DNA from: Candidatus Pacearchaeota archaeon
Lineage (GTDB): Archaea; Nanobdellota; Nanobdellia; Pacearchaeales; GW2011-AR1
DNA: 64,000 bases
Direction: 5' to 3'
Assembly (NCBI GenBank): GCA_018221285.1
Contig: JAAOYJ010000003.1
Coordinates: 213,030 to 277,029 of the forward strand
Under the pieces are notes generated by a model that worked only from the letters and a program-made list of their open reading frames with translations, had not been told where the DNA came from and searched no databases. This document shows, one piece after another, positions 1-43,878 of this stretch (position 1 is its first letter; every line of letters begins with the position of its first letter). The position numbers and the translations under genes are program-made.

Positions 1-244
1 GGATTTGGGGAGATATAAACAATCTTTATTTCTTGCATCCCGAATTTAAATATTTAGAGAGGTACATGGAGTTAAGAATAGACTATAAAAAATTAATTAA
101 AGAAAAACAAGTCACGTTACTTTTCTTTTTTAGTTTAGAGAGAATGTGGAATTTTTTTGGGAGAAAGGTGTTTAAATTAGTCTTAAGAAACAATAGTCCG
201 CATATGTGGAAACCTTTAGAGGATACAAAGGAAGTGAAGATAAC

Positions 245-844
245 ATGAGAACTATTCTAATCGATGGAACCGAATTAAGTGGAAAGACCACCCTTGTAAC
301 CAGTGCGGCTAATAAATTAAGGAAGAAGGGATTTGAGGTTAATTGTAATACTGGTCCACTAAAAAAAGATTCCCTCCTGGTAAAATGTTTTTTAACATAT
401 GCAGAAAAGTCTAAAAAACCTTCACAGAAAGATTTGGGGTATCTCTTGGCATGGGCCTTTGATGGTTTTGAAGATAAGCAAATTACTCAGTACTTCCTCC
501 AAGATAGGGGTTTCCCAAGTGTCCTTGCTTATTCGGGAGTTTTCAATTTATGGGGATCAAATAAATCTATTGGAAGATTGTTGGGCAAAGCATACTCTAG
601 TTTTGATTACAATATACATGTAAAAACAAGGATGAAATCAAGAGAGGAAAGATTGGCCCAAAGAGATAGTTTAACTTATCTAGACACTTTAATCAAAACA
701 AATCCAAATAAGATTTATATGTTGGAGCAAGAGATATCCAGAATAATGACAAAAGAAAGAAATTATTTAGAAATTGATACAAGTTTAATGGATGTTGATG
801 AATCTACAGAGATAATTATAGGCCACATAGGAGGTAATCTTTAA
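245..844 (+). CDS. P-loop nucleoside/nucleotide kinase, thymidylate kinase-like
   Basis: Predicted cytoplasmic kinase that phosphorylates a nucleoside or nucleotide. The chain opens with a beta strand and a Walker A loop (GTELSGKT, residues 8-15). A DR motif (QDRGF, about 86-90) followed by an AYSG segment recalls the substrate-binding DR(Y/F) region of thymidylate kinases and deoxynucleoside kinases. An arginine-rich LID-like stretch (RMKSREERLAQR) lies near 129-140. An upstream in-frame ATG at 206 would add 13 unconserved residues before the beta strand, so the ATG at 245 is preferred. Length (199 aa) fits the family. The Nudix and deaminase genes that follow on the same strand suggest a nucleotide-pool role. 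The exact substrate cannot be told from sequence. Confidence 0.7.
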   Translation: MRTILIDGTELSGKTTLVTSAANKLRKKGFEVNCNTGPLKKDSLLVKCFLTYAEKSKKPSQKDLGYLLAWAFDGFEDKQITQYFLQDRGFPSVLAYSGVFNLWGSNKSIGRLLGKAYSSFDYNIHVKTRMKSREERLAQRDSLTYLDTLIKTNPNKIYMLEQEISRIMTKERNYLEIDTSLMDVDESTEIIIGHIGGNL

Positions 845-914
845 TCTATCATTAAGAATTTCAGTATAAGATTGAATGCGAATAATTTAAAAATCGTCTA
901 TAATTAAGAAGATT

Positions 915-1352
915 ATGAAAACTAATTGCAGAGTTTCTGGGATTGTGTTTAAGGAGGGGAAAGTTGCAGTAGTTAGGCATGAAAATAAGATGCACGGAAC
1001 TTATTATCTTCTTCCTGGAGGAGGGTTGGAGCATGATGAAACTATTGACGAGTGCGCTGTTCGCGAGGTCAAAGAAGAGATAGGCCTTGACGTTAAAGCC
1101 AAAGGATTGATTTATTATGAAGATGTGGTTAGTTCATACGACCATACACTACACTTAATTTTTAATTGTGAAATTATTAGAGGTAATTTAGAAGTCTTAG
1201 ACCCTGATAAAAAAGTCAAAGAAATTATTTTTGTTGATGAAAACGAATTAAAGAGATTAAAATTCTTCCCAGAAAACCTTAAAGAAAGGCTATTTAGAGA
1301 TAAGGGTATAACCGTTCCCATTTCATTGGGTAAAATTCCCTATCCAGAGTAA
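915..1352 (+). CDS. Nudix hydrolase
   Basis: Hydrolyses a nucleoside diphosphate linked to another moiety; the substrate is unknown. A complete Nudix box spans residues 36-58 (G-x5-E-x7-REVKEEIGL), with the catalytic glutamates E54 and E55. The 145-residue length is usual for a single-domain Nudix enzyme. An A/T-rich TATA-like element (about 887-900) precedes the start. It is one of three Nudix genes in the window and sits between a P-loop kinase and a deaminase on the same strand, which suggests nucleotide sanitation or salvage. Confidence 0.9.
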   Translation: MKTNCRVSGIVFKEGKVAVVRHENKMHGTYYLLPGGGLEHDETIDECAVREVKEEIGLDVKAKGLIYYEDVVSSYDHTLHLIFNCEIIRGNLEVLDPDKKVKEIIFVDENELKRLKFFPENLKERLFRDKGITVPISLGKIPYPE

Positions 1353-1390
1353 GATTAAAATCATGATTTTTAAAAGAATAATTCCCTAAA

Positions 1391-1882
1391 ATGAAAAAGT
1401 TTAAACCTTCAAAAAAGTTCATGAAACTTGCAATTGATGAAGCCAAGAAAGCAATAGAAGGGGGAAACTATGCAATTGGGGCAGTGGTTGTTAAAGAAGG
1501 GAAAGTAATTGGAAAAGGAGCGCAAAGTAGCCATTCGAACAATGATGCAAGCGCCCATGCAGAAATTGTTGCAATGAGGCAGGCTTCAAAAAAATTGGGA
1601 ACTATGTATTTAACTGATTGCGTTCTATATACTACTAACGAACCTTGTTGTATGTGTGCTGGGATGGCAATTTGGGGGAGAGTAGAGTGTATTGTTTATG
1701 GGGCAAGTATAAAAGACATGTTAAAATACTGGAAGGAAATTGGAAATGAACAAAAATTAATGCCTTGCAAAAAAATAATCAAGGGATATGGGGCTGCAAT
1801 AGAGATTGTTCCTAATTTTATGAGAAAAGAATGTATAATCCTATTTAATCTTAATTCTAAGATAAATAAGTCCCTTAAATAA
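1391..1882 (+). CDS. Zinc-dependent nucleoside/base deaminase (CDA/TadA-like fold)
   Basis: Hydrolytic deaminase of the cytidine deaminase-like superfamily. The zinc site is intact: HAE at residues 56-58 (H56 ligand, E58 proton shuttle) and PCCMC at 85-89 (C86 and C89 ligands). The 163-residue length and the TNEPCCMC context resemble TadA, guanine deaminase or free-base deaminases more than short cytidine deaminases. It lies 39 bases after the Nudix gene on the same strand, so salvage of modified or unmodified bases is plausible. A tRNA wobble-adenosine role is less likely in an archaeon but is not excluded. Confidence 0.85.
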   Translation: MKKFKPSKKFMKLAIDEAKKAIEGGNYAIGAVVVKEGKVIGKGAQSSHSNNDASAHAEIVAMRQASKKLGTMYLTDCVLYTTNEPCCMCAGMAIWGRVECIVYGASIKDMLKYWKEIGNEQKLMPCKKIIKGYGAAIEIVPNFMRKECIILFNLNSKINKSLK

Positions 1883-1944
1883 CCAACATAACCCTTCTCT
1901 TCAACCAACATAATATTTAAAAAACCTTTTCCCTATTAATCATC

Positions 1945-3432
1945 ATGAAAAAGAGTGCTGGATTAATCTTGATTGTTCTTGTAATTGCAATGGCTGCGCA
2001 GATAAGTGCGTTTGAGTTCTGCGACGACGGTGTTGTTAGAGAAAAAGATCTAAGATTAATTTCTGTTGATGATATGTTAGAAGAGAATACAAAAGAATGG
2101 ATTTGGCAAACTGAGCAGAACATTGAATTAGAGTTAAGGGTGGAAAACAGGGAAGACGAGTCGCGTGATTATGTTGTCGAGGCTGTTTTGGTTGAAAATG
2201 ATAATGATGTTGACACGGCACAGAACGATGATAATCTAAAAGAAGAATTCTCTCTATCTGCTGACGAGAGAAAAACAATCTCATTACATTTTGAAGTTGA
2301 TGAAGACATTGATGAAGGAGAGTATTTACTATTTGTAAAATTCTATGAGAAAGGGGATGAAAACGACAGGTGTGTTGAAAATGGGGAAGAGATCGTAAAG
2401 ATTAAGGAACTTAAAATCTGCCCAGATGGAAATGTGGATGAAGATGATTTGGAGATAGAAAGAATCTCAGACAGGAACGAGGACAATGATGAAGATTGGG
2501 TTTGGGCGCCTGGAAATGATTTGGTAGTCTCCATCGACTTTTCTAACAAAGATTATTCAGAAAGAGACTTTATTGTAGAATTAATCATGCTCGACGAAGA
2601 AGGAACTGAAGTAGAGTTTGCAGAATCTCCTGGAAATGTAATGGAAGATACCTTTCTTGAAGAAGGGGATGAGGAGGATATTCTGTTTGAATTTACATTA
2701 AACAGTCTTTTAACAGGAGAAGATTATTCTTTATACGCAAGATTCTACGATGAGGATGATGAAGATATATGCACAAGCCTAAAAGCAGAGAATAAGGATA
2801 TTTCTGTAACAATAGAAATAGAAAAAGAAGATAACAATGTGGTTGTAACAAAAGTAGAAGGTCCTAACGAGGCTGAGACAGGCTCTGAAGTGAATTATGT
2901 GGTGAAGATAGTTAACCTTGGAAAAGAGGACGAGAAAAGAGCAAGAGTAGTTCTTTACAGCAGAATCCTAAATATAACCAAGATAGCGGAAATAGATGAT
3001 TTAGAAAGTGGGGAAGAAGCAGAAGTAAACTTCTCTTTTAGAGTATTGGACGCCATAAATCTTTCAACCGCAAAAATGACTTTCTCAACAGACTTTGATT
3101 ACAACTCAAATTCAGATGTCTATAAGAAAGAATCAGATGATAATGATAATGTAGATTATTTTGTTAATGTAATCCCAAAAGAAATTACGGAAGAATCTGA
3201 ACCGATAGTAGAAGAAGAGAACACAACTATTGAAGAACTTCTAGAAACTTCTGTTAATCCTGAAACCACTTCTTCAGCACCTATCACTGGTGCAGCAATA
3301 GGTTCAAGCAATAAAAGTAGTTCTGCTCTTTGGATTTCTGTAGCAGTTCTTTTAGTAGCAGGAGCAGCTTTATTCCTAAGACAGAAACAAAAGAAGAAAG
3401 ATTACTATGCTTATGGAACTTCTTATAATTGA
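1945..3432 (+). CDS. Acidic secreted protein with C-terminal anchor and ITGAAI motif
   Basis: Surface protein of unknown function. It has a Sec signal peptide (about residues 1-22, ending ISAFEF). Two related extracellular domains of about 130 residues follow, each starting with a C(D/P)DG motif and carrying a W-x-W pair. A CARDB/COG1361-like beta domain lies near 290-390, then a Thr/Glu-rich linker, ITGAAIG, one membrane helix (about residues 462-480) and a short basic tail. Asp and Glu dominate the ectodomain (DEDDED-type runs), giving a strongly acidic surface. The ITGAAI motif recurs before a C-terminal helix in other surface proteins of this window. Role unknown; adhesion or cell-envelope structure is an inference. 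Confidence 0.8.
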   Translation: MKKSAGLILIVLVIAMAAQISAFEFCDDGVVREKDLRLISVDDMLEENTKEWIWQTEQNIELELRVENREDESRDYVVEAVLVENDNDVDTAQNDDNLKEEFSLSADERKTISLHFEVDEDIDEGEYLLFVKFYEKGDENDRCVENGEEIVKIKELKICPDGNVDEDDLEIERISDRNEDNDEDWVWAPGNDLVVSIDFSNKDYSERDFIVELIMLDEEGTEVEFAESPGNVMEDTFLEEGDEEDILFEFTLNSLLTGEDYSLYARFYDEDDEDICTSLKAENKDISVTIEIEKEDNNVVVTKVEGPNEAETGSEVNYVVKIVNLGKEDEKRARVVLYSRILNITKIAEIDDLESGEEAEVNFSFRVLDAINLSTAKMTFSTDFDYNSNSDVYKKESDDNDNVDYFVNVIPKEITEESEPIVEEENTTIEELLETSVNPETTSSAPITGAAIGSSNKSSSALWISVAVLLVAGAALFLRQKQKKKDYYAYGTSYN

Positions 3433-3457: not shown

Positions 3458-4960
3458 TTAATCCTCGTCATTATATCCTTCATACCTAAGATAATTATCT
3501 TTGACTCCACAATCTCCTATAGAAACACAAGCTTCATTCATTTTATCTTCCCATCCTTGTCCTATACACTCACAGTTATCGACGCACTCCTTGCTTCCTC
3601 CTAAACTTTTCTCGTATGTAACAATACATGTTGTACTCGCAGCCCCACATAAGTCTTCAGCCTCTCCCTCAGCCTCCCAGAAATTAAATCCTGGAGAATA
3701 TTTTGCAACGCATTTAACAGTATATGAATCAACCCATTTACAATCTCTCTTGTCTGTATTCTCACAATCATCTTCGTCCTCCTGCGAAGCACAATCCTGC
3801 CACATATTTACTCTACACGCAGCTGTACTAAACCCTTCAATCTCTGAAGCAATACAAACCTCTTGTCTGAAGTCAGCACAAGGCTCAACATTTACTTCAC
3901 CGTTATAACATACAAGCCTTGAATATCTGCTCCCAGCTAGGTTTTCTTTTAGAGGATCTGCTTCCTCATCTTTATCAAAAATAATCTCACTGGTTCCTGC
4001 AGCTTCTGCACACCATGTCTCTCCGTGACTGTACCTCTTCCCCTCATAAGTACAACTTAAATCTCTACAAATATAATCTCCAAAACTCGGCCTTCTATTA
4101 TCCTCTGTTCTATCATAATCTCTACAAGTGCTTCCTAAGAAATAATCACAACTTCCACAGGTTGCAGAGTCTGCATTCGACTCACCTGAATTACAGCTCT
4201 CACCCTTTGTTTTTATTTCTGCCCAATAATTTTGATCTGTAGCATGCCCATCACTGTCAACTTTTGAAGCATCATAAATATTTGCCAAGTTTCCGCAAGT
4301 GTCTAAAAAATAAACTTCGTCTCTTCCGTCGACACAGGTTGTTTGTTTACTAGATCCACAGTTTGTTTCAAGGGATTCAGCCGAACATAAAGTATCCAAA
4401 TAAAATGTTGTCTCTGAACCCTCGACATTCAGTTTATCACATTCGTTCTTTGTAATAAAAGAACAAGTTATTTCATATTCCTTTTCAAAAACACATGCGC
4501 CCTTTATGTCTGAAGTCGCACTGGCAATACATACGATTTCACTTCCTATATCTGTCCTATAATTTGTTTCTAAACCATACTTAGCAGACAATCTCTTACA
4601 ACTAGTTTGAGTCACAAAAGCTGCCTGGTCTCCAATTAAACAACACCCTAATTGACATTGTTCTAAATCATCTGTATCCCCCTCCTTCCAAACCCCTTCT
4701 TCAGCCTCGCAAATCTTTCCAGGAGTATTATCCATGCAGGTTCCCTCAACACTATCAATACATGTTCCTAACCTACAATAAGCAGTCGCCTCACAGGACG
4801 TCGGCGCTGTTTTATAACTATCATCACAACTATCTTCAGGAGAATTCTGACACCACGCCCCATCATTTGTCCTCTCACAACAATAGGAAGCTTCTCCCAC
4901 CGCAGAAATCATACTAACTAAAAAGATTCCCAAGATTATTGTTATTAATATTTTTTTCAT
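3458..4960 (-). CDS. Cysteine-rich secreted protein, soluble paralogue of the 1389-aa protein
   Basis: The function is not recognised. A signal peptide (about residues 1-20, ending MISA) is followed by one CC-type cysteine module and then a long cysteine-rich core. The core is collinear with the middle of the 1389-residue protein encoded at 6758-10927; shared landmarks are DG(K/R)DE(V/L)Y, SNADS(S/A)TCG, CDYFLGS and a closing GDCG. The chain ends where the larger protein continues into a hydrophobic Gly/Ala region and Ig-like domains, so this copy looks soluble or held non-covalently. The start overlaps the previous stop as ATGA, giving a coupled three-gene unit with the 91-aa protein and a pilin-like protein. 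Many cysteines imply disulfide-stabilised extracellular folding. Confidence 0.85.
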   Translation of the reverse strand: MKKILITIILGIFLVSMISAVGEASYCCERTNDGAWCQNSPEDSCDDSYKTAPTSCEATAYCRLGTCIDSVEGTCMDNTPGKICEAEEGVWKEGDTDDLEQCQLGCCLIGDQAAFVTQTSCKRLSAKYGLETNYRTDIGSEIVCIASATSDIKGACVFEKEYEITCSFITKNECDKLNVEGSETTFYLDTLCSAESLETNCGSSKQTTCVDGRDEVYFLDTCGNLANIYDASKVDSDGHATDQNYWAEIKTKGESCNSGESNADSATCGSCDYFLGSTCRDYDRTEDNRRPSFGDYICRDLSCTYEGKRYSHGETWCAEAAGTSEIIFDKDEEADPLKENLAGSRYSRLVCYNGEVNVEPCADFRQEVCIASEIEGFSTAACRVNMWQDCASQEDEDDCENTDKRDCKWVDSYTVKCVAKYSPGFNFWEAEGEAEDLCGAASTTCIVTYEKSLGGSKECVDNCECIGQGWEDKMNEACVSIGDCGVKDNYLRYEGYNDED

Positions 4961-5232
4961 TTTAAAAAATCATACCTCAATAATTCTGTCTTTCTTTGAA
5001 AAAAGTAATCTTTTACAGAACAAGCCCATCTCTTTCCTGGGATGAAATATTCCCAAGAATCTATTAGTAGAATATCTTTATCTCTCGGATCTGCTATTGT
5101 GTTATCTGGAATTTTTGGTAATCCTACTTTTTTGAGCAATAATTCTAATCTCCGTCTTGCCCCAATAACTTCTTCTGTTGTAGCAAAAAAATCTTTTACT
5201 TTTTTCATTTGTAAATACCTCTCACTTATCAT
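4957..5232 (-). CDS. Hypothetical protein between pilin-like and Cys-rich genes
   Basis: A 91-residue protein of no recognised family. The start at 5232 is chosen because its ATG overlaps the stop of the upstream pilin-like gene as ATGA; a longer reading from 5268 would run deep into that gene. No signal peptide or membrane helix is seen. The middle is charged and helical (EEVIGARRRLELLLKK), and the C-terminal half is aromatic (DSWEYFIPGKRW). It overlaps the following Cys-rich gene by another ATGA, so it is made together with both. It may be a cytoplasmic chaperone or assembly factor for the pair, which is inference from position only. Confidence 0.7.
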   Translation of the reverse strand: MISERYLQMKKVKDFFATTEEVIGARRRLELLLKKVGLPKIPDNTIADPRDKDILLIDSWEYFIPGKRWACSVKDYFFQRKTELLRYDFLK

Positions 5233-6008
5233 CCTAATACACTCTCCACTCCATAACCAGGAGGCCATGCAACACTCCTCGACGCGAACTGAAATTTATT
5301 TCCATTATTCAAATCAGTCAAAACATAAACTGTTGTTCCGTCTGACTGCAATTTCTTCTGAACTCCTAAATCATGATAGTAGTTCATGTAAGTTGTTGTC
5401 TCGGCGTCGCCATAGCTAGTCTCCCAACTAATTATACTATTAGCTATACTAACTAATTCATAAAGATTATTGTTCACCATCACACTAATTGAATCAAACT
5501 TTTCAGAAGTTTCTTTTGTCAAAGTCAGTGAATCATCAAAGCTAACTGCAATTCTTTTAGGCAGTAACTCAACAGAAAAAGCCCCCCTTCTCAAATTCAC
5601 CTCATAGCCTTTTTTCTGGAAACTTTCTTCCAAATCCACAAAACATTCGTCAACAGTCTCTTCTATCGCTTCTTCAACCTCTCTCTCAATATGCCTCTTC
5701 AACATCGGCTGCTGTACAACACATGTCTTATAATATTCATTTGTATAACATAAATACTCAAGCTTTTCACTATTATATACAAAATAATGCTCTGGCTCAA
5801 GACTCCCTCCCTGATGAGACAATCTATTCACATTGCTTTCAACTTCATCCTTAATACAATCTTGTATAAACTCAGACGGATTTTTAGACTCTAACCCAAA
5901 GTTACTTCCGATCTCAGGATAAAACATAAATAATAAAACCCCTACAGCAACAATCGCTATTGCCACAATAATAAAAATACTCACCTGCCCACGTGTATCA
6001 CCTTTCAT
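5229..6008 (-). CDS. Pilin-like protein with class III-type signal (module 2)
   Basis: Membrane-tethered, secreted protein with the N-terminal pattern TRGQVSIFII followed by about 20 hydrophobic residues, as in archaeal type IV pilin-like proteins that PibD/FlaK-type peptidases cleave after Gly. The rest (about 220 residues) is paralogous to the protein at 10929-11702; shared landmarks are YLCYT-x-YY-x-TC, a (L/M)PK(R/K)I strand and a terminal PPG. At 259 residues it is large for a major pilin and fits a minor pilin or tip connector. It is first in a coupled operon with the 91-aa and 500-aa genes. The pilin assignment rests on the N-terminus only. Confidence 0.75.
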   Translation of the reverse strand: MKGDTRGQVSIFIIVAIAIVAVGVLLFMFYPEIGSNFGLESKNPSEFIQDCIKDEVESNVNRLSHQGGSLEPEHYFVYNSEKLEYLCYTNEYYKTCVVQQPMLKRHIEREVEEAIEETVDECFVDLEESFQKKGYEVNLRRGAFSVELLPKRIAVSFDDSLTLTKETSEKFDSISVMVNNNLYELVSIANSIISWETSYGDAETTTYMNYYHDLGVQKKLQSDGTTVYVLTDLNNGNKFQFASRSVAWPPGYGVESVLG

Positions 6009-6053
6009 ATTTCTTTTAAGATATTCTTATTTATAAATCTTACAGCATAGAAG

Positions 6054-6692
6054 TTAATTAGAAGGAGGCGAACAACAAATCGTTTGCATATAATAAGCGT
6101 CTCCAAGACCCCCATATTTAGAAGTACATGAACTTCTTAGAGAATTCCTTAAATCATAGTATGCATTTGTAGGATTTGGAACTTCTGAGAAAAAACTTCC
6201 TATACAAGTATAGCTAGAACCACAATGAACATTCCCATCAAAGTTTGGGTCTGTTTGTTTTAAGGTTAGCATCGAATTAACATGGCATTGATTTAACATA
6301 TTCAAAATACTTTGATAATCTATAGAACCATTAATTGGCATTCCTCCGCTTCCACTATCTGTGCCAGACGAGTTTTCAGTACTTCCACTTGTTCCATTAC
6401 TTGTAGAAGAACCAACACATGTCGAAATCACATTATCCCAAGATTCTCCAGAACGACATTCGCAAACATCCATATGCTTAGATTTCTTATATTTCACACC
6501 AACATTCTTAGAACAATATCCAGTCAGACAATCAGAAGGCTTGTCGCAATCCCCTTCTCCAGAAGGACACGGAGTGCTTTGAGAACACCACTTCCAATCC
6601 CATATTACATTTCCTGTAAATAATCCTGCAGAAACAAGAGAGAGCATTAACACTCCCAAAACAACTCCCACAAAAATAAAATATCTTTTCAT
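6054..6692 (-). CDS. Small cysteine-rich secreted protein with N-terminal FTGNVI
   Basis: A 212-residue exported protein of unknown function. A signal peptide (about residues 1-22, ending SLVSA) is followed at once by GLFTGNVI, which resembles the ITG(A/N)A motif seen near the C-terminus of other surface proteins here. A first cysteine cluster (C-x4-C-x6-C-x4-C-x4-C, about 36-62) precedes a Ser/Gly/Thr linker (about 95-125) and a second cysteine-containing domain ending ICCSPPSN. There is no C-terminal anchor. It lies between the two pilin-like/Cys-rich modules on the same strand, so co-expression with the surface apparatus is likely. Confidence 0.75.
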   Translation of the reverse strand: MKRYFIFVGVVLGVLMLSLVSAGLFTGNVIWDWKWCSQSTPCPSGEGDCDKPSDCLTGYCSKNVGVKYKKSKHMDVCECRSGESWDNVISTCVGSSTSNGTSGSTENSSGTDSGSGGMPINGSIDYQSILNMLNQCHVNSMLTLKQTDPNFDGNVHCGSSYTCIGSFFSEVPNPTNAYYDLRNSLRSSCTSKYGGLGDAYYMQTICCSPPSN

Positions 6693-6757
6693 ATTATTTT
6701 CTCTTTTAATTTATACATATAATAATATCTAACTTATAAGTATTTTGATTATTTATC

Positions 6758-9700
6758 TCACTCAAAGAAACTCGGTGAAACAATCATTGCACAAGTCGGG
6801 TTAGTGTTCCTCCAAATATCTCTACATTTGATATAATAAGTTTCTCCAAGAGACCATTGTATAGTGTGTGTTGATGAAAGCATACTAGCCATGGGAGGAA
6901 AATTATCAATATCAAAGTAACAATGGTTCAAACTATAATAACACTCTGCTTCCTCATCCGTGCTTAAGATTAACGAATCTCCCATTTTGGAAATCCTTGT
7001 AGCAACAGGAGGAGCAGTATCAATCACAAGACTAAAGTTAGTCTCTCCTCGAGCAATATTATTCCCTTCATCAACACACTCTACAGCGATATAATGGTCT
7101 CCCCTCATCATTGTGTTGAAGTTTTGTTCATGAAGATTTGAAAAAGTGTTAAAGAACTGGATCATCTCCCCGTCTTCTGTAAAACTATAGCTACATTTTG
7201 CTTTTCCGTTTTCACTCCCTCCAGAAGTTTTAACTTTTAGGTCAATAGAAATAGGCTCAAATCCTTGTTCAATCTCTCCTTCAGGAATAATTGATGAAAT
7301 CTGCAACGCACTTTCAGAACCTTTCAAAGTGTAGACAAAAGATTCTACATTAACATTCCTTGCTTCATATCTTTCTATCTCTTCTGTTGTATTCACCCAG
7401 GGCTTATCCATACACTTAATATAGAACTTGTTATCTCCTCCTTCCAGTCCTGTCAAGGTTGTATTACAAGGCCAACCAAATGCCTCAACTTCTAGCAAGT
7501 CAGTCTTACACTCCATGCTGTTCGACATTGTTTCATAACTTTTGTTTCCGTCAACATCATACTTGCACTCTGCAGGCTCATTCAAATAAATAGTCAAAGG
7601 AGATGTTGAAACTTCATACGCTGTATATGAACCATCGTTTGGAATAGATTTTACGATTCTTGCAGCAGTCAAGTCAGGACCAGAGTTAATACAGAAATTA
7701 ACTGCATACTCGTCGACATTTGCATTCCCATGATAATCTTGGCATCTTACATACATGTTCATATTCCCAAACATCTCCTTGAGATCTCCTGTAACATTGT
7801 AAACCTCTAAACTTCCTAAACTAGGCATAGAGAATGCAAAAGAATGATTTGTTGTGTACATAGTTTGTTCAAGAGGATATTGTGTCATGTCCCCATAATT
7901 ATTCGTTCTCTGAAGTTCAAACTTACACTGCGCAAATTCGTCAGTCTCTAAACTAAATATTACCTGGGTAAACTCTGGAACACATTTATCTTCCCTATCT
8001 TTAGAAAGTATCTTAACATTCTTGCTCGAGATATTTTCAAATGAATATCTTTCCTCAATTACACTCTCTGAAATTACTGGAGGTCTTCCGTCATTGGGTA
8101 TGCTTTCACAAGTAGGATTTTCTGTATTAGGGTTTAATAATTTACATGCTTGTCCAAGAGAACTACATTTATATGTGGAACATACTCTCAAAGGATCATC
8201 ATTACATTTATCACAATCGCTTCCACCTGTCGGAGCTTGCCAAGGCATACATATAAATTCAACTCTTCTAATTTCTGTTTCCCCCCATCCGAGGATTGAT
8301 ATGATGACCATAATTGCTAGTGCGATCCACCCTACTACAGGGATAGTTAATGCTCCTGCCGCATAACTGGCATATCCTATTGCTGCCCCCGCAACAGCCC
8401 CTGCCACAGTCAAAGCTGTTGCAGCATCTCCAGACCTTCCTAATGATTCCGCAAGATATGATCCCACCATTGCTCCAACTGCTGCCCCTGCAAATGCATA
8501 TCCAAATGCTGACACTGAAGCAGACGTCCCCATAGAACTCATTCCAGCTGCAGCACCTTTAGCAGTCACGGCTCCAGGGAGATATCCTGCCGCAAAGCCC
8601 GCTATTGTTCCAAGCCCCCCACTAACAGTACCAATCATTCCCACTGCATTATCAAAACCACTCTCTTCATCAGGAGTAAGACTTGTAGATGTCCCTCCAA
8701 TTGAACCTAAAAATGCCCTCATATCTTTTGGTTTTGCAAACTGCCCTGATACAGTATTAACATAATTAATATAATCTTTCCATGAAATACTTGATGCTCC
8801 ACTTACCTTGATATTATCTGTTCCTTCCCCAACATAATTAACATAGCTTCCACAATCTCCTAATGAGATACATAAATCATTCATCTGTGGTGCAAACCCC
8901 CCTCCTTCACAAGCACAATTCTTTTTACAACGCCAACTTCCTACAATATTTTTTTCATACATAACACTACATGTCTGGCTTGCCATTCCACATATTTTTT
9001 CAGAATTACCTCCGCCTGTCAAATCAAATCCTCGAGGGTATTCTCCAACACAGACATCAAATTGAAACTGCGCTGCAATTTTAATACTCTTAATCATACA
9101 ATCTTCGTTTGCCCTGCACTTATCTTCCATATCATCATCTGAATTATAACCTAAACAGCTCATTGCCTCGTTCACAACACAAGCTGCAGCGGTAAATGTC
9201 TCACTTCCATCATCAGAACTCATTTCAGATTGAACACAAATACCTCCACGATAATCTGCGCAACCTTCTACTTTAATCTCTCCATCAATACACATTCTCT
9301 TCCAGTGCCGACTTCCTGCAGTATCCTTCCCCTCTCCAATATAAGAATCATAAACACACCAACTTTCCCCATTCTTTCTTTCCACCCCCTCTTCATCAGT
9401 ACAAGCCATATCTGCACAAACAAAACTTCCATCAGCAACCTTTGAACTAAGTAATGAACTTTCAGCACCTCTACTCCCTAAGAAATAATCACAATTCCCA
9501 CAAGTTGAAGAATCTGCATTTGACTCATCAGGGTTACAACATTCTGCTTTAGAAAGAAGCTTACCTTCATTCCATGATGCATCCCTATCAGAAGAATAAA
9601 TATTTTCCCTATTACCACAACTATCAAACCAGTATAACTCATCCTTACCATCGACAAGCCCGACTGATTCCTGTCTCTCACAACTTGTATTCAATGCAGG

Positions 9701-10927
9701 ATTAGAACAAATGTTTCCTTGGGAAAATAGTCCTCCCATACTTAAGCACTGGCTTTCTGTTAAAAATTTACAATCATCATCAATAACACACGCACTCTTA
9801 ATCTGGCTCGCAGCAAGAACCAAACAATCAACCTCAGATGTTAAATCTCTAAAGTCTTTTTCAAATCCATAAAGAGGAGAAAGCTGGGCACATCTCTGTT
9901 CTGTTGCAAACAATACATCATTTCCTAAAACACAACAACCTTTTTGACATTCTGTAACCAAGCAATTTTCTTCATCTTTCCAAACCCCTCCGTCTAGTTC
10001 ACATTTTTCCATTGTTGCTTTTGTCGTACATAAACCTTCTTCCTCGTCGACACAGCAACCTTTCTTACAATCAGCAACATTCTCACAATTTGTAGATATA
10101 ACATCAACCGCACAACTTTGAGTATCAGTGGAGGCAATATTCTGACATATTGCTCCAACAATTGTTTGTCTACAACAACTCCATGATAAATCTGAAGCCG
10201 CGCTAACATCAACTTCCCATTCTGCTCCAATGCTCACTGTAGGCTCATTTAATCCAACCACTTTACAATTATTCTCCTCACAAGTTCCTAAAACCAATGG
10301 GTCCGCACAATTTTTATGGTATCTTGAAGTATCTATACAAAAATCATCTTTATCACTATAATCCTCCGAGATTATCTTCGGGCAACAACTTAAACAATCT
10401 TCTGTGCACCTTCCCGAAGATAGTGGGGCTGCCGTAAGATTACATTGTTCAGGATGGGCTGTTGGAATATCTGTACAAAGATTTCCTTGATTATTCTCTG
10501 GGCAACAGCTCCAACAATTATTTTGTATGCAAGTACCATCTTTTAAATCTTCAGCACAATTAGAATTTTCTTTAAAATAATTTAAAGAAGGATTGGTAAA
10601 TTCATCCCATATATAAGTTAAATCTTGACAATGTCCTCCATTATTTGTTTCAGGACAACAAAAATGTGAAGGTTCCTGATCACCGTCTCTAGCAGAAACA
10701 ACTCCAATTTGTTTTATAGATAGTGATCCAATCAATAAACCAATCCCTAATTTGGTGAGTTCTTTTAATTTACTCTTCTGAACAATTATCTTTGAACCAA
10801 TCTTTTTGTAATCTTTCTGACTAATAATATAGCTATCTGCAGTAGGAATATTAATCAGTAGGAAAATCTGCACCAACACTATTAATAACAATACCAATTC
10901 AATTTTTCTTTTCTTTATTTTAACCAT
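6758..10927 (-). CDS. Giant cysteine-rich surface protein with Gly/Ala hydrophobic region and Ig-like domains
   Basis: A 1389-residue exported protein not assigned to a known family. Order of parts: an N-terminal hydrophobic segment (10-27); a second (60-78) ending at a signal-peptidase-like GVVSA; four to five CC-containing modules of about 45-60 residues (85-330); a core homologous to the 500-residue protein at 3458-4960 (about 330-720); a Gly/Ala-rich, very hydrophobic region (about 760-882) with small-residue repeats and a classical helix near its end; then a four-Cys segment and several Ig-like beta domains rich in N-glycosylation sequons. It starts one base after the stop of its pilin-like partner. 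Large adhesin or membrane-inserting effector is inference. Confidence 0.85.
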   Translation of the reverse strand: MVKIKKRKIELVLLLIVLVQIFLLINIPTADSYIISQKDYKKIGSKIIVQKSKLKELTKLGIGLLIGSLSIKQIGVVSARDGDQEPSHFCCPETNNGGHCQDLTYIWDEFTNPSLNYFKENSNCAEDLKDGTCIQNNCWSCCPENNQGNLCTDIPTAHPEQCNLTAAPLSSGRCTEDCLSCCPKIISEDYSDKDDFCIDTSRYHKNCADPLVLGTCEENNCKVVGLNEPTVSIGAEWEVDVSAASDLSWSCCRQTIVGAICQNIASTDTQSCAVDVISTNCENVADCKKGCCVDEEEGLCTTKATMEKCELDGGVWKDEENCLVTECQKGCCVLGNDVLFATEQRCAQLSPLYGFEKDFRDLTSEVDCLVLAASQIKSACVIDDDCKFLTESQCLSMGGLFSQGNICSNPALNTSCERQESVGLVDGKDELYWFDSCGNRENIYSSDRDASWNEGKLLSKAECCNPDESNADSSTCGNCDYFLGSRGAESSLLSSKVADGSFVCADMACTDEEGVERKNGESWCVYDSYIGEGKDTAGSRHWKRMCIDGEIKVEGCADYRGGICVQSEMSSDDGSETFTAAACVVNEAMSCLGYNSDDDMEDKCRANEDCMIKSIKIAAQFQFDVCVGEYPRGFDLTGGGNSEKICGMASQTCSVMYEKNIVGSWRCKKNCACEGGGFAPQMNDLCISLGDCGSYVNYVGEGTDNIKVSGASSISWKDYINYVNTVSGQFAKPKDMRAFLGSIGGTSTSLTPDEESGFDNAVGMIGTVSGGLGTIAGFAAGYLPGAVTAKGAAAGMSSMGTSASVSAFGYAFAGAAVGAMVGSYLAESLGRSGDAATALTVAGAVAGAAIGYASYAAGALTIPVVGWIALAIMVIISILGWGETEIRRVEFICMPWQAPTGGSDCDKCNDDPLRVCSTYKCSSLGQACKLLNPNTENPTCESIPNDGRPPVISESVIEERYSFENISSKNVKILSKDREDKCVPEFTQVIFSLETDEFAQCKFELQRTNNYGDMTQYPLEQTMYTTNHSFAFSMPSLGSLEVYNVTGDLKEMFGNMNMYVRCQDYHGNANVDEYAVNFCINSGPDLTAARIVKSIPNDGSYTAYEVSTSPLTIYLNEPAECKYDVDGNKSYETMSNSMECKTDLLEVEAFGWPCNTTLTGLEGGDNKFYIKCMDKPWVNTTEEIERYEARNVNVESFVYTLKGSESALQISSIIPEGEIEQGFEPISIDLKVKTSGGSENGKAKCSYSFTEDGEMIQFFNTFSNLHEQNFNTMMRGDHYIAVECVDEGNNIARGETNFSLVIDTAPPVATRISKMGDSLILSTDEEAECYYSLNHCYFDIDNFPPMASMLSSTHTIQWSLGETYYIKCRDIWRNTNPTCAMIVSPSFFE

Positions 10928-10928
10928 C

Positions 10929-11702
10929 TTATATTCCTGGAGGGATTACACACCCTCTTATAGCAAATTTGAATTCCTCTTTACTATCTCTGTCTCCGAC
11001 AGTATAAATTGTAGTTGAATCCCCTGTCTTGAATTTATCTATATCGAATTGAAGATAAAATAACATAAAGCCTAAATTTTCAAAATTACAGAATCGTGCT
11101 TCTTGACTTGTAATCTCTTGGACAACCACAGCCAAGTCATAAAACTTGCTCGTAACACTGACCTTAAAATCCTCTTGCTTTGTAGTCTCTCCTGATTTTG
11201 TCAACACAAGCTCACTATACCCCTCGACAATAATCTTCTTTGGCATAAGTTTAATATCAAACCCTTTATACATCGCATCAACTACATGCCCTTTCTTCTC
11301 TAAACTAAAAACCAGCTCATCAAAACAATTCTTAACATCTTCTGAAATATAGTCTTTTATCTCCTTTTTCAAGTGCCCAATTAATACTGGTTCCTGATTC
11401 ACACAAGTTTCATAATAGTTTTGAGTATAACAAAGATAAGAAATATCCGATGGCGCTCTCTCGTCAGAAAATTGAAAAGTTTTATTCAAAGGGTTTCCGA
11501 TAGATCCTCCCTGCGAGGAAAGTATCTCTGTAGTTTCCTTAATCTTATCCTCGAGACAAGAACTCAAAAAAGAATTCGGCTCAATGTCTTTTCCCTGCCC
11601 AGTATCTTGAATCACACCAATCTTAAAAAATAAAAACATAAGAATTATTCCGACGATTGCAATACCTGCAATTATAAAAACTGAAACCTGCCCCTTTTTC
11701 AT
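10929..11702 (-). CDS. Pilin-like protein with class III-type signal (module 1)
   Basis: The N-terminus MKKGQVSVFII plus a hydrophobic stretch to about residue 27 matches archaeal pilin-like proteins processed between Gly and Gln. The ectodomain is clearly paralogous to the protein at 5229-6008: YLCYT-x-YY-x-TC near residue 100, LMPKKI near 150, and a terminal IPPGI. It is first gene of a two-gene unit whose second member, one base downstream, is the 1389-residue Cys-rich protein. The same gene order in both modules implies that the pair was duplicated and that the two products interact. A minor pilin presenting a large adhesin is the likely role. Confidence 0.78.
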   Translation of the reverse strand: MKKGQVSVFIIAGIAIVGIILMFLFFKIGVIQDTGQGKDIEPNSFLSSCLEDKIKETTEILSSQGGSIGNPLNKTFQFSDERAPSDISYLCYTQNYYETCVNQEPVLIGHLKKEIKDYISEDVKNCFDELVFSLEKKGHVVDAMYKGFDIKLMPKKIIVEGYSELVLTKSGETTKQEDFKVSVTSKFYDLAVVVQEITSQEARFCNFENLGFMLFYLQFDIDKFKTGDSTTIYTVGDRDSKEEFKFAIRGCVIPPGI

Positions 11703-12163: not shown

Positions 12164-12889
12164 CTAATCCTCAGTCTCAACCCTCGGTGCAAGGATAAAT
12201 GAAATTTCCATATGATCTGTTTTACAATCCATCTTAAGCGGATGGTCGTTAGCAAAATGCAAAACTGTTTTTTCTGTTAGCTTAGAACCTTTGATAAACT
12301 TCTGCAAATACTCCAAACTATATCTTGACTTGCATGTCTCTGCCTGTATTTGTGCCTCGTCTCCTGAAAACTCAGACCGCGCAGAATTCAAACCCTTTGC
12401 CTCAATCACGAATTTACCCCCCTCAATAATAAACGAACACGCATCAGCAACAACAATACAATCCTCTATCGAAGCAATCAAGTCAACAGAGCTCAACTTA
12501 ACATGCGAACTAAACTCCAACTCAGGCATCTCCTTATCCTCTGTATCTATATCAATAAGATTCAAACTAAAGTTCCTTCTTATCCTATCCTGAATCTGAA
12601 TCTTCAATAAATTATCTTTGCTCTCTAAAATCAACGAACTTCCAACTCCTGCCCTCTTTAGAATTCTTTTAAAATCATCAAGGTTAACTCCCAACACCTC
12701 ACTGTCAGCCTCGAACTGCGAGAAAGCACTCTTCGGAAGCTTGAACCCAACCATTGAAACATTCGCCGGATCCCTCGCTGTAATACTCATCCCAAACTCA
12801 TTCACCTTAATCCGAACATCTGTCACCAACTCTGCAATAACATCTACGCTCTTCGCCAACAAAACAGGATTATCTAATTTCACCAACAT
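12164..12889 (-). CDS. pcn: DNA polymerase sliding clamp (PCNA)
   Basis: Ring-forming processivity factor that tethers DNA polymerase, ligase and FEN1 to DNA. The 241-residue length is typical of archaeal PCNA. Recognisable parts are the N-terminal strand and helix (VLLAKSVDVIAELVTDVRIK), the SITARDPANVSMVGFKLPK segment near residues 35-53, the interdomain region with D/E-rich linker near 115-125, and the C-terminal LAPRVE strand. Only one PCNA gene is seen in the window, suggesting a homotrimer. A Nudix gene follows one base downstream. Confidence 0.95.
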   Translation of the reverse strand: MLVKLDNPVLLAKSVDVIAELVTDVRIKVNEFGMSITARDPANVSMVGFKLPKSAFSQFEADSEVLGVNLDDFKRILKRAGVGSSLILESKDNLLKIQIQDRIRRNFSLNLIDIDTEDKEMPELEFSSHVKLSSVDLIASIEDCIVVADACSFIIEGGKFVIEAKGLNSARSEFSGDEAQIQAETCKSRYSLEYLQKFIKGSKLTEKTVLHFANDHPLKMDCKTDHMEISFILAPRVETED

Positions 12890-42597: not shown

Positions 42598-43878
42598 TTA
42601 GACCCACTGCTCCAAAGCTTCTTCAAGCTCAACATGATTCTTTGCATATTCTTTAAGTGACTTCTTTTTCAAAACAGCGTCGACAGCTTGACGCATTGCG
42701 ATGGAACCCGCTTCTGTTCCGAATTTGTGCCCATGAATTCCTCCTCCTGCTTGTATGGCTATATCCTTTCCTAAGTGTTTCATTAGAAATGGAACATGTC
42801 CTGGGTGCAGTCCTCCTGAAGAAACTCCTAAAGTTGGCTTAATCTTTCTCCAATTCTGTGCCAATCTATGATGGGTTTCCTTAACTTTATATTTTTCAAT
42901 ATCTTCTTCAATCTCAATAATCTGTTTTATTTTTCCCTCAAGCTTTCCAATTCCTGTTCCAATATGAATCTGATCAACCCCGATCAATCTTGCAAAATCA
43001 GCTAAGACCATCATGCTGACCCCATGTTCAGGATTTCTATCAAATGCTGCATGCATTGCCCTATGTGCATGAAGTGCCAGTTTGAAATTACCTTCCCTCA
43101 AAGTTTGTAATGCTGCCCAACCAGAAGTAATAATATCAATCATCACATACTTGCCCCCCATTTTCTCAACAAGCTGGGCCCTCTTCATCATCTCCTTTGT
43201 CTCTGCAGTAACATTAATCAAATAACCTTTTTTCTCACCTGTCTCACTCTCAGCCTTATCTGCCATCTCCAATGTTTTGGCCAATCGTTTTTCAAAAACA
43301 TTAAATCTCTGAGAAGCAAGATTCTCGTCGTCCTTAACAATATCACATCCTCCTTTCCAAGCCTGATAAGCAGATTCTGCATGATGTTTAACATTTAATC
43401 CTAACTTTGGTTTTACGATTGTTCCAACCAACGGCCGATTTTTAACTTTCAAGATTCTCCTAACTCCTTTAATTCCATATCGAGGCCCTTTGAAACTTTT
43501 CAAAATACTTTTAGGAAAACTAACGTCCTCCAATCTAATCACCTTAACAGCTTTCATTCCCATTATATTCCCTGCAATCGACGACAAAATGTTCGGAACA
43601 TTATCATACTCAAACAATTCCTGCGGATAAGCAATCTTAACCCAACCACTTCTCTTAATCGAAAAAACCTTTGCCTGAAGCTTTTCGACATAATCTAACT
43701 TACTACCCGCAACCTTTGTCCATGTCCCAGTCGACGACTCAAGCGCAACAGTATTCACAGCTTTTTTCAAACTCAAACCTTTTCCAGGAGTAACCTTAAA
43801 CAAACATATCAAATCATTCTTAGGCTTATAACGCAAGTCTATAAATTCAAACTCTTTTTTCTTCACCATCTTCTTCAA
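42598..43878 (-). CDS. rbcL: Ribulose-1,5-bisphosphate carboxylase/oxygenase, form III-type large subunit
   Basis: Fixes CO2 onto ribulose bisphosphate; in archaea it usually works in AMP/nucleoside recycling. All main active-site elements are present: ESSTGTW (E47), GTIVKPKLGL (K156), GGCDIVKDDE with carbamylated K182 and D184/E185, LHAHRAMH (H270, H272), the loop-6 Lys in GKLEG (K312), SSGGLHPGH (353-361) and GGGIHGH (378-384). Length 426 fits form III and not the RuBisCO-like proteins. AMP phosphorylase and R15P isomerase genes are not in this window. The gene stands alone on the minus strand, convergent with the surface-protein gene. Confidence 0.93.
   Translation of the reverse strand: MKKMVKKKEFEFIDLRYKPKNDLICLFKVTPGKGLSLKKAVNTVALESSTGTWTKVAGSKLDYVEKLQAKVFSIKRSGWVKIAYPQELFEYDNVPNILSSIAGNIMGMKAVKVIRLEDVSFPKSILKSFKGPRYGIKGVRRILKVKNRPLVGTIVKPKLGLNVKHHAESAYQAWKGGCDIVKDDENLASQRFNVFEKRLAKTLEMADKAESETGEKKGYLINVTAETKEMMKRAQLVEKMGGKYVMIDIITSGWAALQTLREGNFKLALHAHRAMHAAFDRNPEHGVSMMVLADFARLIGVDQIHIGTGIGKLEGKIKQIIEIEEDIEKYKVKETHHRLAQNWRKIKPTLGVSSGGLHPGHVPFLMKHLGKDIAIQAGGGIHGHKFGTEAGSIAMRQAVDAVLKKKSLKEYAKNHVELEEALEQWV

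Follow-up and report, generated by a model that had tools for sequence, protein, structure and literature searches.

The PilY1 and minor pilin operons of bacteria encode several small proteins with pilin signals together with one protein of about 1200 aa. The glutamate at position +5 of pilins is missing in some known minor pilins. The archaeal type IV pilus loci covered by the census of Makarova, Koonin and Albers (2016, PMC4858521) combine small proteins that carry class III-like signals with large surface proteins and, in some cases, with an S-layer gene; the motor and the prepilin peptidase are encoded in the genome. Neither DPANN nor Woesearchaeota turned up in a word search of the text of this census. 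The way in which DPANN archaea build their surfaces and contact other cells is largely unknown, since almost none of these organisms have been cultivated.

We analysed a stretch of 64,000 nucleotides (the window), which is part of contig C42. The genome is a Pacearchaeota-like MAG of a DPANN archaeon, 863 kb in size (82% complete, 5.8% contamination). The closest named relatives of this genome are Candidatus Pacearchaeota and Nanoarchaeota MAGs. The window carries a tandem pair of modules, each consisting of a small protein (PIL) and a cysteine-rich protein (Cys). The larger Cys proteins, termed Cys-Ig, combine a cysteine-rich N-terminal region (CysN) with a membrane segment and an Ig-like C-terminal half (TM-Ig). 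The five ORFs that an earlier note, made from the letters of the sequence, had arranged into two paralogous modules on one strand were all found at the positions given there, on the minus strand. The features of the locus within the window are as follows.

12164..12889, minus strand: PCNA, a conserved neighbour upstream of the locus
10929..11702, minus strand: PIL1 (P1, 257 aa), class III-like signal KKG|QVSVFII, TM helix 3-27, flexible linker and alpha/beta ectodomain with conserved cysteines; clade A of the PIL tree
6758..10927, minus strand: C1 (1389 aa, 83 Cys), the CysN-TM-Ig protein of module A
10223..10927, minus strand: residues 1-235 of C1, signal segment and extra CC repeats (alignment columns 101-270)
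8783..10210, minus strand: CysN region of C1, approximately residues 240-715, modelled mostly as short beta-hairpin and helix elements
8291..8674, minus strand: mid-protein hydrophobic Gly/Ala-rich segment of C1, modelled as at most four helices at low confidence, with weak Gly-zipper Pfam matches
6758..8275, minus strand: C-terminal half of C1, tandem Ig/FnIII-like domains, with weak Big_13 and Y_Y_Y matches
6054..6692, minus strand: 212-aa exported Cys-rich ORF (14 Cys) between the two modules
5229..6008, minus strand: PIL2 (P2, 259 aa), clade B of the PIL tree
4957..5229, minus strand: 91-aa ORF, a doubtful gene, not conserved
3458..4960, minus strand: C2 (500 aa, 43 Cys), the CysN half of module B, which is split; it has a Sec-type signal peptide and lacks any other membrane segment
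1945..3432, plus strand: CARDB surface protein, opening the 5.4 kb, mostly plus-strand block that parts C2 from its TM-Ig half

Elsewhere in the window, a 426-aa ORF (42598-43878) resembles by eye the archaeal RuBisCO large subunit and is a candidate for this protein.

The pilin-like partners align, as had been claimed: P1 and P2 are 37% identical (E 1e-44). The motifs quoted for the Cys proteins are found in both of them, and C2 is 41% identical to residues 240-700 of C1 (E 1.7e-79). C2 is aligned entirely, but only the N-terminal half of C1 is covered. The junctions are as tight as described, with a single base between P1 and C1 (TAA-G-ATG) and an ATGA overlap leading into C2. The make-up of the modules had to be revised. 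No homologue of the 91-aa ORF was found in any other locus compared, including that of a genome of the same genus, and thus it may not be a gene. The 212-aa Cys-rich ORF, omitted from the earlier list, has no homologue among the loci compared either. Both were rejected as parts of the system for this reason.

The second half of module B lies outside the window. In a search of the genome with C1, residues 831-1385 were matched again in a 722-aa ORF (L009:8918-11086), which sits 5.4 kb past the stop codon of C2, behind the block of mostly plus-strand genes. The second copy is split, with C2 as its N-terminal half and the 722-aa ORF as its C-terminal half. Examples of loci in which it is fused, with CysN and TM-Ig in one ORF, are L044, L047, L052, L108, L109, L111 and L136. 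In the CysN tree, 22 split forms make up a supported clade that excludes the fused forms of module B, and modules A and W (the latter from Woesearchaeota) are full length. Thus, the fission of module B is derived. The split CysN halves have kept the Sec-type signal peptide and, with few exceptions, have no other membrane segments; the TM-Ig halves begin with a hydrophobic segment of their own. Window positions 1-3432, between the two halves, are occupied by plus-strand genes (glycosyltransferase-like, kinase-like, NUDIX-like, deaminase-like and the CARDB surface protein), and unrelated genes are found at this point in other genomes as well.

These observations bear on the soluble decoy or shield suggested in the earlier note, a role in which the 500-aa protein would work by itself. 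Such a role would be compatible with a signal peptide followed by no membrane segment, and in a few genomes the TM-Ig half does not adjoin the CysN half. On the other hand, the product is one half of a gene that is fused in relatives, the split forms branch as a derived clade inside module B, and this genome also encodes the missing half. We therefore rejected a decoy or shield as the main reading of this protein and consider it highly improbable.

PIL and Cys had been presented as partners, and in related genomes the two genes are not usually apart. For 121 of 137 Cys genes, PIL was observed within the two preceding same-strand ORFs. The gap between the two genes has a median of 2.5 bp, and they overlap in 45 of 132 pairs. 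In quick trees of PIL and CysN, with support by SH-aLRT only, constructed for 64 pairs with the module order as a label, two changes of the label were observed in each tree, the minimum for the split into A, B and Woesearchaeota. Both genes have been recently re-duplicated in L088 and L136, where the copies are sisters in both trees. The pairing is thus real and ancient, with an early joint duplication visible in both trees and repeated by later re-duplications.

The PIL/Cys modules form one end of a larger locus. Maps of 40 loci from relatives and of 77 loci with record titles yielded, as the commonest gene order, PCNA, PIL1, Cys-TM-Ig, PIL2, Cys, TM-Ig, Y146, Y305, Y168, Y175, an HTH gene on the opposite strand, the S-layer gene and two more one-TM proteins. 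Where the contigs were long enough to tell, PCNA was upstream in 35 of 45 loci, two or more Y genes lay downstream in 17 of 24, and Y175 was followed by the S-layer gene in 16 of 19; this last arrangement occurs in Pacearchaeota as well as in Woesearchaeota. In this genome four genes lie behind the 722-aa ORF on its strand, encoding small proteins of 146, 305, 168 and 175 aa with hydrophobic helices at their N-termini; the gene of an 889-aa S-layer protein comes next. Within the stretch seen, several Pacearchaeota loci have no S-layer gene or are without the four small genes. The surface setting proposed earlier agrees with this S-layer gene in the locus. The Cys/PIL family was found in nearly all genomes of the family to which the window belongs and in 236 of 371 genomes sampled from the phylum, although the weakest of these matches may be Ig-only. 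A core structural role fits this distribution. No description of the locus was found in a literature search. The gene set, nearly universal in Pacearchaeota and Woesearchaeota, probably belongs to the core of their outer surface.

The expectation that no known family would fit was borne out. Searches of Pfam, NCBIfam and PDB sequences with PIL and Cys proteins gave only chance-level or generic matches, and the Cys-Ig protein belongs to no Pfam or NCBIfam family and has no PDB sequence match. The start of PIL resembles a class III signal. In 120 sequences, position -2 is K or R in 107, position -1 is G, A or S in all, and position +1 is Q in all, so that the Q at the predicted cleavage site is invariant; 113 of the 120 fit the pattern [KRHQED][GAS]Q. 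Position +5 is occupied by F, W or Y in 117 sequences and by I in three, in place of the Glu of pilins. Four cysteines are invariant. The AlphaFold model of PIL (pLDDT 93.8) has a 25-residue TM helix (3-27), a break at 31-35, a flexible linker and an alpha/beta domain. It lacks the pilin arrangement, in which a long, unbroken N-terminal helix packs against a beta domain. No match below E 1e-3 was obtained with Foldseek against PDB and viral structures, and no pilin is among the 50 PDB structural matches listed for this model. Judged by the fold of the model, PIL was rejected as a type IV pilin. NTF2-like and VirB8-like domains occur among the weak Foldseek matches, but this assignment was also rejected, as the TM-scores of approximately 0.1-0.3 do not support it. 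Hence, the signal of PIL resembles that of a prepilin, whereas its predicted fold does not.

In most relatives the PIL domain recurs, about once per genome, as the N-terminus of a protein of approximately 600-690 aa, and a role of PIL as an adaptor would fit this recurrence. In this genome it is represented by the 621-aa protein at L011:1601-3466 (G000:C42:1601-3466), with its N-terminal PIL domain. At L012:2523-5218 the gene of a distant PIL paralogue (251 aa) overlaps that of a 654-aa exported protein, forming one more pair of PIL and a large partner; the latter has no NCBIfam match.

The signal of PIL agrees with the analogy to minor pilins and tip adhesins drawn in the earlier note. In its developed form this analogy implies a pseudopilus or pilus-tip complex, in which PIL and the four small proteins would be minor-pilin-like, with the A24 peptidase cleaving them and the type IV pilus-type motor encoded elsewhere assembling them, and the giant Cys-Ig protein would be a tip-associated adhesin similar to PilY1. 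Starts of the same class III-like type were found in Y146, Y168 and Y175, and Y175 has a weak match to ComGD. The small proteins of the PIL/Cys locus and of the motor locus are similar in their profiles, mostly in the N-terminal helix. The machinery itself is common: T2SSE-type ATPases were found in 56/56, T2SSF in 53/56 and A24 peptidases in 52/56 genomes searched. In this genome, the region C42:37-50 kb (L171:6163-18693; G000:C42:37.2-49.7 kb) encodes a FlaI/TadA-like ATPase of 761 aa, which is divergent, and a protein of 720 aa that is likely TadC-like, judged by its position and by weak T2SSF matches in a few relatives. The same region encodes six to seven small pilin-like proteins with an N-terminal TM segment and the A24 prepilin peptidase. 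This divergent motor locus is conserved in most relatives examined. A canonical pair of ATPase and TadC is encoded on contig C26. G059 has a PIL-Cys module and the divergent motor locus, yet no Pfam match to T2SSF.

However, nearness of the pairs to pilus ATPase or PibD genes, also considered in the earlier note, was not observed. The motor genes are approximately 160-180 kb away from the PIL/Cys locus on the same contig, and no ATPase, TadC or prepilin peptidase was seen at the locus itself or in the maps of relatives, where unlabelled ORFs were scanned in part. The fold of the confident PIL model, with its floppy linker, the aromatic residue at +5, and the membrane segment of the giant proteins also argue against a pilus tip. 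Given the signal motif and the motors present in the genome, we keep a pilus-tip role under consideration, but as an unlikely one.

The Cys-Ig proteins have a Sec-type signal of their own and a mid-protein membrane segment. The full-length forms mostly contain one to four mid-protein hydrophobic segments. In the model of C1 (pLDDT 84) the helical middle is poorly modelled; the low confidence of its hydrophobic segment and the single mid-protein TM called by hydropathy make the topology of the Cys-Ig protein uncertain. The C-terminal half of C1 matches stacks of Ig/FnIII domains (Foldseek E 7e-13, probability 1.00) with the beta-sandwich of the Ig fold. Structures of the Ig, FnIII and cadherin types dominate the list of structural matches, and the grappling hook protein GhpA is among them. 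The CC..G.C repeats of CysN may resemble repeats of bacterial surface proteins. Cysteines are near-invariant along the entire alignment, and on informal assessment no hypervariable domain was identified. The head of C1 (residues 1-235, with the extra CC repeats) is common only to the relative from the same genus among 28 aligned full-length members.

A stack of Ig domains next to a cysteine-rich domain could also bind the surface of a host or another neighbouring cell, with the A/B duplication and the head extensions diversifying the binding. Stacks of this fold are frequent in adhesins, the match to GhpA and the lineage-specific head of C1 agree with such a role, and cultivated DPANN cells are described as needing contact with a host (PMC11291902). 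On the other hand, the near-universal presence of the family and its single conserved position resemble a core structure more than a variable adhesin, and the same is suggested by the near-invariant cysteines. This makes a contact adhesin quite unlikely in our opinion. An adhesin or a pilus tip is possible, but either is less supported than an envelope complex linked to the S-layer.

Of 15 members of the S-layer protein of the locus, 13 contain PF05124 (S_layer_C), with a best E of 1.4e-13; the copy of this genome had no match alone at E 0.01. The S-layer protein matches the S-layer structure PDB 9fsa and shows no C-terminal TM. Since it lacks a membrane anchor at its C-terminus, the PIL/Cys products would, as their specific function, most likely serve as an anchor or stalk. 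Synteny, the anchorless S-layer protein and one fusion protein point to such a role. However, synteny with the S-layer gene is no proof of binding, and in some genomes, this one included, the halves lie apart or have moved. The fusion, a 1489-aa ORF (L010:8367-12836; G000:C42:53369-57835), joins a LamG domain to an S-layer-like region and to roughly the first 95 residues of CysN, after which a stop codon follows. It is present in this genome only, among 56 searched, and is truncated. Thus, it was rejected as a proof of interaction and is a hint at most.

The explanation that we favour, tentatively and at somewhat less than an even chance, is a core membrane-anchored, disulfide-rich envelope complex of Pacearchaeota and Woesearchaeota, linked to the S-layer, with PIL as its adaptor. 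PIL would be a small protein held by its N-terminal helix, with the class III-like signal possibly cleaved by the prepilin peptidase encoded elsewhere. Each PIL would serve one dedicated giant partner, composed of an exported, disulfide-rich CysN, a Gly/Ala-rich membrane segment and an Ig-like stack. In module A the giant protein is kept whole. In module B, ancestrally fused and later split, the CysN half would be secreted and the TM-Ig half made apart. Four more small proteins encoded downstream, also with class III-like signals, and the S-layer protein may join them. The products would then assemble into a single membrane-anchored complex, either spanning the S-layer or supporting it, with the large ectodomain mounted on the PIL adaptor. 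A bolder possibility, which seems to us rather doubtful, is an unrecognised envelope machine defining this DPANN lineage, where a PIL adaptor of a new fold and a new disulfide-rich domain would anchor or gate the S-layer, with prepilin-type processing but no pilus.

The fixed gene order, at least two families without a known relative and the tight link to the S-layer gene provide defined targets for the surface architecture of Pacearchaeota and Woesearchaeota, which thereby becomes testable by recombinant expression, interaction assays and cryo-ET.

The PIL/Cys locus and its genome share with the archaeal type IV pilus loci (PMC4858521) the features listed at the outset. However, unlike the loci described in that census, the PIL/Cys locus contains no ATPase, TadC or peptidase, and PIL does not have the pilin fold. 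As in the PilY1 operons, several small proteins with pilin-like signals are encoded beside one giant protein. No sequence relationship of Cys-Ig to PilY1 was found, and neither the Pfam, NCBIfam and PDB sequence searches nor the structural matches place it with PilY1. The locus also differs by the Ig stack, the mid-protein membrane segment and the duplication of the giant protein together with PIL. The S-layer gene ending the locus belongs to the methanococcal-type S-layer proteins (PF05124), whereas PIL and Cys-Ig do not. Finally, the tandem Ig-like C-terminal half is similar to that of fibrillar adhesins and other surface proteins with Ig stacks, such as GhpA. In contrast to these, Cys-Ig has a CysN region without a known relative, a membrane segment between its halves, and a conserved partner, PIL.
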